Assembly (NCBI GenBank): GCA_028583405.1
Contig: JAPTMU010000108.1
Span: 42,501-106,500 of the forward strand
Direction of reading: 5' to 3'
DNA length: 64,000 bases
DNA from: Pogonophryne albipinna
Lineage: Eukaryota; Chordata; Actinopteri; Perciformes; Artedidraconidae
Under the pieces are notes generated by a model, which was given only the letters and a program-made list of their open reading frames with translations, ran no database searches and was not told the DNA's origin. Both the position numbers and the translations under genes were made by a program. Position 1 is the first letter of the stretch; each line of letters starts with the position of its first letter. This document shows positions 12,501 to 18,500 of this stretch, piece after piece.

Positions 12501-15500
12501 GCATGCTTCTGTGCCAACGGACACATCATGACCCTCAGGTACAACAACAACAACAACAACAATACACAACAATACACAGACACATCATGACTCTCAGGTA
12601 CCACAACAACAATACACCGACACCTCATGACCCTCAGGTACAACTACAACAACAACAACAATACACATCGTGATCCTCAGGTACCACAACAACAATACAC
12701 AGACACCTCATGACCCTCAGGTACAACTACAACAACAACAATACACAACAATACACAGACACATCATGACTCTCAGGTACCACAACAACAATACACCGAC
12801 ACCTCATGACCCTCAGGTACAACTACAACAACAACAACAATACACATCGTGATCCTCAGGTACCACAACAACAATACACAGACACCTCATGACCCTCAGG
12901 TACAACTACAACAACAACAATACACAACAATACACAGACACATCATGACTCTCAGGTACCACAACAACAATACACCGACACCTCATGACCCTCAGGTACA
13001 ACTACAACAACAACAACAATACACATCGTGATCCTCAGGTACCACAACAACAATACACAGACACCTCATGACCCTCAGGTACAACTACAACAACAACAAT
13101 ACACAACAATACACAGACACATCATGACTCTCAGGTACCACAACAACAATACACCGACACCTCATGACCCTCAGGTACAACTACAACAACAACAACAATA
13201 CACATCGTGATCCTCAGGTACCACAACAACAATACACAGACACCTCATGACCCTCAGGTACAACTACAACAACAACAACAATACACATCGTGACCCTCAG
13301 GTACCACAACAACAATACACAGACACATCATGACCCTCAGGTACAACTACAACAACAACAATACACAACAATACACAGACACATCATGACCCTCAGGTAC
13401 AACAACAACAATACACAACAATACACAAACACCTCATGACCCTCAGGTACAACTACAACAACAATACACATCGTGACCCTCAGGTACCACAACAACAATA
13501 CACAGACACATCATGACCCTCAGGTACAACTACAACAACAACAACAATACAAAACAATACACAGACACATCATGACCCTCAGGTACAACTACAACAACAA
13601 CAACAACAACACACAACAATACACAGACACATCATGACTCTCAGGTACCACAACAACAATACACCGACACCTCATGACCCTCAGGTACAACTACAACAAC
13701 AACAACAATACAAAACAATACACAGACACATCATGACCCTCAGGTACAACTACAACAACAACAACAACAACACACAACAATACACAGACACATCATGACT
13801 CTCAGGTACCACAACAACAATACACCGACACCTCATGACCCTCAGGTACTACAACAACAACCACAACAACAACAACAATACACATCGAGTCAAATGTAAT
13901 GAAAGTCAGATGGTGTCTTAGACGGGCAGTGATATCATAAACCTGTTAATGTACGCATTCAAACACTTGTTCTGTTACCAGCTGTATTCACCTTGCAGGT
14001 GCAGCTCTGTGGCTTTGATCCTGGATCAAGTGTTTAAGTCATGTTTAAAGTTTAACTTCTTCATATGTCTAATATTAAAGTTCACTTTTCATTCAGGAAG
14101 TATGACGCTGCGCTGTCAGTACGCTTCTCCATGTCTGTGATTGGTCGAATGCTCCAGATACCACCCCTCTCATGTGAACGCGCACCTAACTAGATAGGAC
14201 ACGGCTGGCTTGAGCGATCCACTTGATAACCCGCGTCGTAGGACCGCTTAGCGAGAGCGCGTATGTTTTGGATTAGGCCAACCGGCTAACTCAAACATAT
14301 CCAGGTTAGGTTGAACCGGCTTCGTAGTACAGGCCTCTGGTACTACAACAACAACAACAACAACAACAATACACAACAATACATATACACATCATGACCC
14401 TCAGGTACCACAACAACAATACACAGACACATCATGACCCTCAGGTACTACAACAACAACAACAACAATACACAGACACATCATGACCCTCAGGTACTAC
14501 AACAACAATACACAGACACATCTTGACCCTGAGGTACAACTACAACAACAACAACAACAACAACAATACACAGACACATCATGACCCTCAGGTACTACAA
14601 CAACAACAATACACAGACACATCATGACCCTCAGGTACTACAACAACAACAATACACAGACACATCATGACCCTCAGGTACTACAACAACAACAACAATA
14701 CACAGACACATCATGACCCTGAGGTACAACTACGACAACAACAACAACAACAATACACAGACACATCATGACCCTCAGGTACTACAACAACAATACACAG
14801 ACACATCATGACCCTCAGGTACTACAACAACAACAACAATACACAGACACCTCATGACCCTCAGGTACAACTACAACAACAACAACAATACACAGACACC
14901 TCATGACCCTCAGGTACAACTACAACAACAATACACAGACACATCATGACCCTCAGGTACTACAACAACAACAACAATACACAGACACATCCTGACCCTC
15001 AGGTACTACAACAACAACAATACACAGACACATCCTGACCCTCAGGTACTACAACAACAACAATACACAGACACATCGTGACCCTGAGGTACCACAACAA
15101 CAATACACAGACACATCATGACCCTGAGGTACCACAACAACAATACACAGACACATCATGACCCTCAGGTACCACAACAACAATACACAGACACATCATG
15201 ACCCTCAGGTACTACAACAACAACAACAATACACAGACACATCCTGACCCTCAGGTACCACAACAACAATACACAGACACATCATGACCCTGAGGTACCA
15301 CAACAACAATACACAGACACATCATGACCCTCAGGTACAACTACAACAACAACAACAATACACAGACACATCATGACCCTGAGGTACCACAACAACAATA
15401 CACAGACACATCATGACCCTGAGGTACCACAACAACAATACACAGACACATCATGACCCTGAGGTACAACTACAACAACAACAACAATACACAGACACAT

Positions 15501-18500
15501 CATGACCCTGAGGTATCACAACAACAATACACAGACACATCCTGACCCTCAGGTACTACAACAACAACAACAATACACAGACACATCCTGACCCTCAGGT
15601 ACTACAACAACAACAATACACAGACACATCATGACCCTCAGGTACAACTACAACAACAACAACAACAATACACAGACACATCATGACCCTCAGGTACTAC
15701 AACAACAACAACAATACACAGACACATCCTGACCCTCAGGTACTACAACAACAACAATACACAGACACATCATGACCCTGAGGTACCACAACAACAATAC
15801 ACAGACACATCATGACCCTCAGGTACTACAACAACAACAACAACACACAGACACATCATGACCCTGAGGTACCACAACAGCAATACACAGACACATCATG
15901 ACCCTCAGGTACTACAACAACAACACACAGACACATCCTGACCCTCAGGTACTACAACAACAACAATACACAGACACATCATGACCCTCAGGTACAACTA
16001 CAACAACAACAACAATACACAGACACATCATGACCCTGAGGTACCACAACAACAATACACAGACACATCATGACCCTCAGGTACTACAACAACAACAACA
16101 ATACACAGACACATCATGACCCTCAGGTACTACAACAACAACAACAATACACAGACACATCCTGACCCTCAGGTACTACAACAACAACAACAATACACAG
16201 ACACATCATGACCCTCAGGTACTACAACAACAACAACAATACACAGACACATCCTGACCCTCAGGTACTACAACAACAACAATACACAGACACATCATGA
16301 CCCTCAGGTACTACAACAACAACAACAATACACAGACACATCCTGACCCTCAGGTACTACAACAACAACAATACACAGACACATCATGACCCTGAGGTAC
16401 CACAACAACAATACACAGACACATCATGACCCTCAGGTAATACAACAACAACAACAACAACAACAGGGTTATAAATACCTGGGGGAGTCACAATAGCTAA
16501 AGGTGGCTTTCACTCTGAACCCCTGTGAGATGTTGGGTTTAATGACCGTTCCTCTATTTTAGAATATAAATACTTCTGTGCATGTGAGAAGTTAGAATAT
16601 GAACATCTCACTCAAATTAATAACAACAATAAAACATTTAGAAATATTTCAGGGTTTTTGAATGAAGCTTTGAACGTCTGTCGCCATGTTTTACAGACTT
16701 CATCCCTCTTAAATTAAATTAATAAATAATAAGTATACTTTTTTTATTATTGTGGTTTTATAGATGTACTTTATGTTGAAGTTAGTTAATCAATCAATCA
16801 ATCAATCAATCAATGTTTATTTATATAGCCCAATATCACAAATGTTACATTTGTCTCAGTGGACTTCACAGTTTGTACAAAATATCAGTATGACAATACG
16901 ACACCCTCTGTCCTCAGACCCTCTGTCCTTAGACCCTCTGTCCTCAGACCCTCTGTCCTTAGACCCTCTGTCCTCAGACCCTCTGTCCTTAGACCCTCAC
17001 ATCGTATAAGGAAAAACTTCCGGAGAAACCCCACAGTTTAAAGGGAACATGGGAGAAACCTCAGGGAGAGCAACAGAGGAGGGATCCCTCTCCCAGGACG
17101 GACAGACGTGCAATAGATGCCATGTGTAAATTGAAAAGATAATACATTTGCAACATAGGTAGTCCAAATGTTTGGAAATGCATGTGAGTATAATAGGAAG
17201 ATGAATCCACGAGGATATCCATCGAGGACCTATGATCCAGGACCACAGCCACGACTCAAGATCCAGGGCTCGCGATGCAGGACACAGGACCGCAGGATCA
17301 TCCATGACTCCGGATCCCGGCGTATATAGACACCAAAAAGAAAGAGATTTGGGGAAGCTGGGTTAATCGGAACATGAGAGTCCACAGGTATAGACAGAGA
17401 GAAGGAAGAAGTAAGATGTCCCCCGACAAACTAAGCCTATATCAGCAAAACTAGGGGCTGAAACTAATCAGCCCTAACTATAAGCTTTATCAAAAAGGAA
17501 GGTCTTAAGCGCACTCTTAAAAACGGATAGGGCGTCTGCCGCCCGAACACAAACTGGAAGCTGATTCCACAAATGTGGAGCTTGATAAGAAAAGGCTAAG
17601 TTAAGATTATTTAACATTTATTCTGCAAAACCCTTAAATATAGACTTACATTTGAAGTTTCTATTGAGGTTTTTAAAAGTCTGTCGCCCCTAAAAATGTA
17701 TTAAAAGTCTCCCAAAAGATCCTTAATTTGAATAAATAGTAAATGTTATTTTGTATTAATGCTTGATGTGTCCCCCCTCTCAGTTTGCCCAGCTTGCGCC
17801 CCCTGCTGGACGTGAACTACCTCCCTCTGACGGACATGAGGATCGCCAGAACCTTCTGCTTCTCTCACCTGGGCCAGGCTCTCTACCTGACCTCCCCCAC
17901 GGAGATCCAGAGGCTCACCTACAGCCAGGACACCTGTGAGCACAGACAGGTGAGGGGGGGTTACTGTAACAGCCAGGACACCAGTGAGCACAGACAGGTG
18001 AGGGGGGTTACTGTAACAGCCAGGACACCAGTGAGCACAGACAGGTGATGGGGGTTACTGTAACAGCCAGGACACCAGTGTGAGCACAGACAGGTGAGGG
18101 GGGTTACTGTAACAGCCAGGACACCTGTGAGCACAGACAGGTGAGGGGGGTTACTGTAACAGCCAGGACACCAGTGAGCACAGACAGGGGAGGGGGGGTT
18201 ACTGTAACAGCCAGGACACCTGTGAGCACAGACAGGTGAGGGGGGTTACTGTAACAGCCAGGACACCTGTGAGCACAGACAGGTGAGGGGGGTTACTGTA
18301 ACAGCCAGGACACCTGTGAGCACAGACAGGTGAGGGGGGTTACTGTAACAGCCAGGACACCTGTGAGCACAGACAGGTGAGGGGGGTTACTGTAACAGCC
18401 AGGACACCTGTGAGCACAGACAGGTGAGGGGGGTTAATGTAACAGCCAGGACACCTGTGAGCACAGACAGGTGAGGGGGGTTACTGTAACAGCCAGAACA

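Follow-up and report, generated by a model that had tools for sequence, protein, structure and literature searches.

The window analysed here is a 64,000-nt stretch of the Pogonophryne albipinna genome (assembly GCA_028583405.1, contig JAPTMU010000108.1, positions 42,501 to 106,500 of the forward strand), which carries part of tomosyn-1 (stxbp5). We found that the splice donors of two successive coding exons of this gene, E22 and E23, each form the first unit of a tandem array of donor copies, with 76 copies in array 1 and 19 in array 2. Minisatellites that span an exon–intron boundary are known as mirages in amphioxus, and we favour, with a probability of about 0.77, reading array 1 as a neutral, locally born mirage, with its first unit pinned by coding selection and its later donors mostly tolerated passengers. 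The first-pass annotation of this DNA had described array 1 and suggested that it could be a decoy or sponge for U1, slow splicing or tune productive tomosyn output. Its sequence finding is right and the locus is richer than it described, with a second donor array and a doubled acceptor, while the functional suggestion is unsupported.

Between 12520 and 16436 the 19-mer that ends E22 is present in 76 copies (at most five substitutions, counted within 12501–16500), and unit one is the commonest version, with 27 exact copies. GTA directly follows all 76 copies, and no AGGTA lies outside the units in that stretch. The earlier statement that each unit carries the last 19 exon bases and then the donor is thus borne out, as is the location of the array, whereas its bounds shift from 12519–16460 to 12520–16457, with an interruption at about 13888–14338, and the unit count comes down from about 90. 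The real exon end at 12538 is indeed unit one: E23 begins at 17784, and translation across the junction (codon AG|T) reads HIMTL-S-LPSLRP, matching fish tomosyn models. Adjacent copies are spaced by 40, 43, 46 or 49 nt in 28, 15, 12 and 5 of 75 cases, that is, in 3-nt steps within the ACA part, and the left and right parts of the array hold different unit variants.

We searched the whole genome (1.07 Gb, 861 contigs) for a 22-mer of this junction with up to three mismatches, revealing 83 matches, of which 76 lie in array 1, all on one strand. Each of the seven matches elsewhere has exactly three mismatches, and two of them are the exon ends of paralogue copies. Because 76 of the 83 matches are local and the rest sit at three mismatches, array 1 derives from the end of E22 itself, in agreement with the first-pass annotation. 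A reversed-pattern control gave 4 genome matches, which excludes chance similarity as the source, and a dispersed repeat is excluded as the source by the 22-mer being private to the locus genome-wide. The fragment that interrupts the array does belong to a dispersed element: with 40 of 2,179 candidates scored, 39 other near full-length matches listed have 97–99% identity, and in the three copies whose flanks were inspected by eye the common sequence extends further 5'. This element was apparently active recently, and many of the copies listed are on high-numbered contigs, which may be unplaced.

The host gene was identified through its SNARE-motif exon, which matches m-tomosyn 1urq with E = 6.9e-26. 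Coding exons located by tblastn with fish stxbp5 span −31476 to 22836 in window coordinates, some of them concealed by a gap of 5,000 N that lies immediately 5' of the window, and exon labels follow this map with four exons assumed within the gap. The best match to E21–E26 is a Pseudochaenichthys georgianus model at 99%, followed by Eleginops and Champsocephalus esox at 90–91%. A pseudogene is unsupported, as E21–E26 are open, their splice sites join in frame and 3 of 378 residues differ from the P. georgianus model. A Pfam search with four exon pieces returned only a synaptobrevin match below the cutoff and a weak one that looks like chance, and a PDB search with the array-bearing exon returned no match. 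The P. georgianus model of the gene lies on a 23.9-kb contig, a hint that icefish assemblies may be poor in this region. The C. esox model lacks a stretch inside the array-bearing exon, probably through an annotation artefact or a species difference.

Table 1 Features at the duplicated splice junctions of tomosyn-1, in window coordinates
Feature	Position	Strand	Basis
Upstream copy of E14 acceptor junction, AG at 252-253	225..285	+	Alignment of two copies
Downstream copy of E14 acceptor junction, exon from 344	315..375	+	tblastn; alignment
Coding exon E22, last 19 bases = array 1 unit 1	12181..12538	+	tblastn with fish stxbp5; frame and junction
Array 1 left part, units 1 onward, right end approximate	12520..13887	+	Repeat and unit scans
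Authentic donor GTACAA (CAG|GTACAA)	12539..12544	+	Junction, U1 duplex estimate
In-frame stop	12588..12590	+	Read-through of all 75 later donors
Dispersed-element fragment interrupting array 1 (~450 bp), ends approximate	13888..14338	+	Genome matches
Array 1 right part	14339..16457	+	Repeat and unit scans
Next coding exon E23	17784..17949	+	tblastn; frame and junction
Array 2, 47-bp unit, 19 donor copies, begins inside E23	17921..18839	+	Repeat and donor scans
Array 2 second donor, +48 nt = 16 residues, in frame, no stop	17998..18003	+	Frame reading
Decayed second copy of E24 acceptor junction	18875..18946	+	73.6% over 72 columns vs 18952-19016, E = 5e-6

Use of the second array 1 copy, which ends at 12597, would add 59 nt and meet a stop, as first proposed, and the same stop is common to all 75 later donors. 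The extension lengths split 27/25/24 across the three frames (76 rows, the first row being zero). Position +5 is A, C or T in these donors and G in 0 of 76. Donor strengths are given throughout as U1 duplex estimates. Of the 76 donors, 62 are at −7.1 kcal/mol, 13 (GAG units) at −5.7 or −5.8 and one at −8.1, all weak beside the −14.0 of a consensus donor. The authentic E22 donor is as weak as the array copies, and 17 tomosyn-1 donors, some of them possibly placed one base off, range from −4.3 to −12.5. Since the authentic donor is equally weak, the weakness of the array copies alone does not decide against competition in cis. Invariance of positions −2 to +3 across units was not beyond chance (9 of 27 columns variable, P = 0.11). 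The units are unlikely to be microexons or recursive sites, as the 20 nt before CAG average 57% pyrimidine versus 75% at the real acceptor.

The E23 donor is likewise unit one, in array 2, where 16 of 19 donors are identical at −11.6 kcal/mol, one is altered with its GT kept and two have no GT; most are therefore stronger than those of array 1. The third donor would add 95 nt without a stop, and the 16 later donors reach a stop at 18046. At the other end of an intron, the E14 acceptor junction is present in two copies 90 bp apart, with 44 of 61 columns identical and an unbroken identical run of 38. The upstream acceptor would add 90 nt, or 30 residues, in an open frame, with the frame of the preceding exon, which falls in the N gap, taken from relatives; these residues were found in 0 of 233 fish tomosyn proteins. 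The E24 acceptor duplicate falls below the threshold used for the boundary count described below. An array of a 57-bp unit in intron 1 runs up to the exon 2 acceptor and ends within its polypyrimidine tract, and the same 57-mer is also arrayed at 71524–73554, so the intron 1 array is not private. Elsewhere in the gene, an 11-bp minisatellite (−17099 to −15375) nearly fills its intron, from about 20 bp past the donor to about 25 bp before the acceptor. A 54-bp repeat at −32649 to −32448, about 1 kb upstream of the start codon, bears CAGGTGAG donor words and could be the boundary array of a 5' untranslated exon.

These arrays lie in a region saturated with minisatellites (period of at least 9, length of at least 100 bp). 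Minisatellites cover 44% (56,786 of 127,761 called bp) of a 134-kb stretch of the same contig (C846:2501-136500, window −39999 to 94000; the window itself is C846:42501-106500) and, elsewhere on the contig, 36% of two further 10-kb pieces, compared with 1.9% (919 of 49,000 bp) in five controls picked by round coordinates and 0.2% (225 of 108,000 bp) in the surroundings of the paralogue copies. At 44% versus 1.9%, the capture of some splice junctions is unsurprising. Counting as a local copy 25 of 32 identities within 4 kb, we found copies of 32-mers at 3 of 42 splice boundaries, in 317 of 800 intronic windows and in 5 of 600 exon-interior windows, all five of the last adjoining the E23 junction. 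Boundary copies are thus rarer than intronic and commoner than exon-interior ones, which is expected if arrays arise anywhere and selection purges those that break exons. Three strong donor words in a row occur in the 134-kb stretch only in array 2 and in the 54-bp repeat near −32600; the same screen found none in four other stretches, and seven control words gave none on the 134-kb stretch.

Two candidate correlates of the repeat density were rejected: GC content at third codon positions (GC3) is 0.79 in window exons and 0.78 in the paralogue, and no TTAGGG triple occurs on either strand in the 134 kb, which speaks against a telomeric position. For the plunderfish genome, a passage of a 2026 preprint puts tandem repeats at about 4.5% (PMC13131655). 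Downstream of tomosyn-1, an array of a 24-bp unit (9.2 kb, 388 copies, 35556–44791) stops some 160 bp short of a SAM-domain gene, which starts at 44952 and matches SAM_1 with E = 2.5e-13. This gene resembles SAMD5, a neighbour of STXBP5 in human. In the paralogue, the last stxbp5-like exons lie in a 16.8-kb segment that is 99.6% identical between C13:21984815-22001647 and C2:15019096-15035912, reflecting either a recent segmental duplication or an assembly error.

We propose that a segment of about 59 bp, containing the final 19 coding bases together with the donor and (ACA)n, was tandemly duplicated across the exon–intron boundary and then amplified by unequal exchange or slippage, which would account for the 3-nt variation observed in the ACA part. 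Growth would have proceeded only into the intron because coding selection holds unit one. The first donor would serve nearly all productive mRNA, as gene models and the amphioxus precedent suggest, and leaky use of the 75 later donors would lead to a premature stop and presumably decay. The E23 donor and one, perhaps two, acceptors would likewise have been captured because the gene sits in a minisatellite-saturated contig. On this view, repeat growth probably produced array 1 as a neutral side effect.

The closest known counterparts are the mirages of amphioxus, described in passages of PMC3087553 for Adh3 and the globin genes BflGb6 and BflGb9; PMC3902484, in the part concerned, adds troponin C and similar repeats in PGBD5. 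As there, tandem units combine exonic and intronic bases from a single splice junction: array 1 repeats 19 exon nucleotides plus GTA in 76 of 76 units and array 2 begins inside E23, AG/GT is kept in 76 of 76 and 17 of 19 units, and array 1 was born at its locus (76 of 83 genome matches). According to the authors of PMC3087553, RT–PCR (reverse transcription PCR) and Adh3 data suggest regular splicing without interference. The fish arrays are described here from the sequence of one assembly. PMC3087553 also cites, in the passages concerned, somatic instability at Adh3 and intron gain through duplication of AG/GT proto-splice sites, a process likewise involving duplication across AG|GT that makes potential new splice sites; the arrays described here differ from it in having no demonstrated new intron or exon. 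The scale differs from amphioxus too, with 6 and 3 units in BflGb6 haplotypes and units of 10–160 bp in the described cases, compared with 76 and 19 units in fish tomosyn, and with arrays at several boundaries of one gene in a fish.

A second comparison is the human gene IFI6 (6-16, G1P3), whose minisatellite has a 12-bp unit. This minisatellite, originally reported by Turri in 1995 (title in the references of PMC2572611), also sits at an exon end and offers multiple splice donors, and its downstream units do serve as donors, giving three mRNAs according to a passage of PMC4526556; in tomosyn-1 the inner donors are only candidates, and those of array 1 lead to a stop. Among fish, seabream myostatin-2 carries intronic duplications, as stated in part of PMC3045353, and we recognised no fish gene with a boundary-spanning array in the titles and abstract openings of the open-licence literature searched or in passages of PMC3045353.

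Several points weigh against neutral growth with tolerated donors. Placing 37 arrays at random with up to 40 nt of exon overlap permitted, 0.13 donor-spanning arrays are expected versus 2 observed (P = 0.009), 0.27 versus 2 for donors plus acceptors (P = 0.03) and 0.47 versus 3 for sites touched (P = 0.011), a mild excess from a post hoc test in which some exon ends are approximate. Use of the first donor is inferred from gene models, which do favour it: among 233 fish tomosyn models, junction inserts occurred in 0 of 228 scorable at the first junction and 0 of 226 at the second (5 and 7 unscorable, respectively), with the five notothenioid stxbp5 rows among those scored. These models cover two paralogues, many are predicted and many are isoforms of one gene, and they cannot be counted as independent; the orthologues of the window gene among the matches listed amount to five rows, from three notothenioid species. 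In addition, competition between two comparable donors favours the intron-proximal one by a mechanism that is not known, as a passage of PMC6002489 states citing Roca 2013, so that it is a real puzzle how the most distal donor among 76 would be used so quietly.

In a bolder reading, which we consider unlikely, the two ladders, one of 76 weak and one of 19 mostly stronger donors, would reflect an undescribed first-site rule, such as early co-transcriptional commitment, or inner donors would be used and array length would be a heritable dial on tomosyn isoforms and dose in this fish. Similarly doubtful is direct competition among the donors, in which U1 would bind many units in cis, inner donors would be used and copy number would set the tomosyn level and isoform mix, with array 1 inner donors running into the stop at 12588 and decay and the second array 2 donor adding 16 residues. 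AG|GTA is kept in all 76 array 1 donors, 16 of the 19 array 2 donors reach −11.6 with copy 2 open and in frame, and both the IFI6 precedent (PMC4526556) and the advantage of intron-proximal donors (PMC6002489) point the same way, as far as the passages concerned go. Against this stand the lack of inserts in the 228 and 226 scorable fish models, the weakness of array 1 donors, the loss of GT in 2 of 19 array 2 units and, in the relevant passages of PMC3087553 and PMC3902484, amphioxus mirages reported without disturbance of splicing.

Less probable is an assembly artefact that inflated or created array 1. The contig is rich in repeats, the 5,000-N gap lies close by, and two close indels in exon 2 (window −25207 to −25106) shift and then restore the frame, as read errors can do, although they may be real. 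The structured unit differences, with distinct left and right variants and a dispersed element inside, argue against an artefact; the exact copy number of array 1 may nevertheless be wrong in the assembly.

Protection of introns by U1 is established, and donor-like sites in the E22–E23 intron might shield its more distant part from premature cleavage and polyadenylation. The 75 later donors all precede the three AATAAA motifs of this intron (16628, 16721 and 17731) and two of its three ATTAAA motifs, but the AATAAA motifs come 0.2–1.3 kb past the array, motif matches alone are no evidence of use, and the sites are weak with no sign of selection, making such a shield more improbable still than an artefact. 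Least probable of all is a sponge that would titrate U1 away from other genes in trans, an unlikely role for which only the number of sites speaks: the sites are weak, and U1, at about a million copies per cell, is in very large excess over nascent tomosyn transcripts. Strong sites kept by selection, as a decoy or sponge would have, are not what we observed, with array 1 mostly at −7.1, P = 0.11 for its invariance and GT lost in 2 of 19 array 2 units. The absence of inserts in 228 models, the abundance of arrays on the contig and the harmlessness reported for amphioxus boundary minisatellites, in the parts of those papers cited above, further weaken a functional reading, which is possible and which the results support no further.

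With neutral, local growth as the favoured reading, the tomosyn-1 arrays would extend a class of boundary-spanning minisatellites described mostly from amphioxus and with few units, adding a fish mirage of extreme copy number. Donor ladders in two successive introns mean that a working protein depends on the most distal donor prevailing, and the 76 and 19 copies at adjacent donors constitute an extreme natural test of choice among comparable 5' splice sites. Minisatellite growth in a single region can thereby reshape splice junctions, a route that has been proposed for intron gain (PMC3087553, in the passage concerned).

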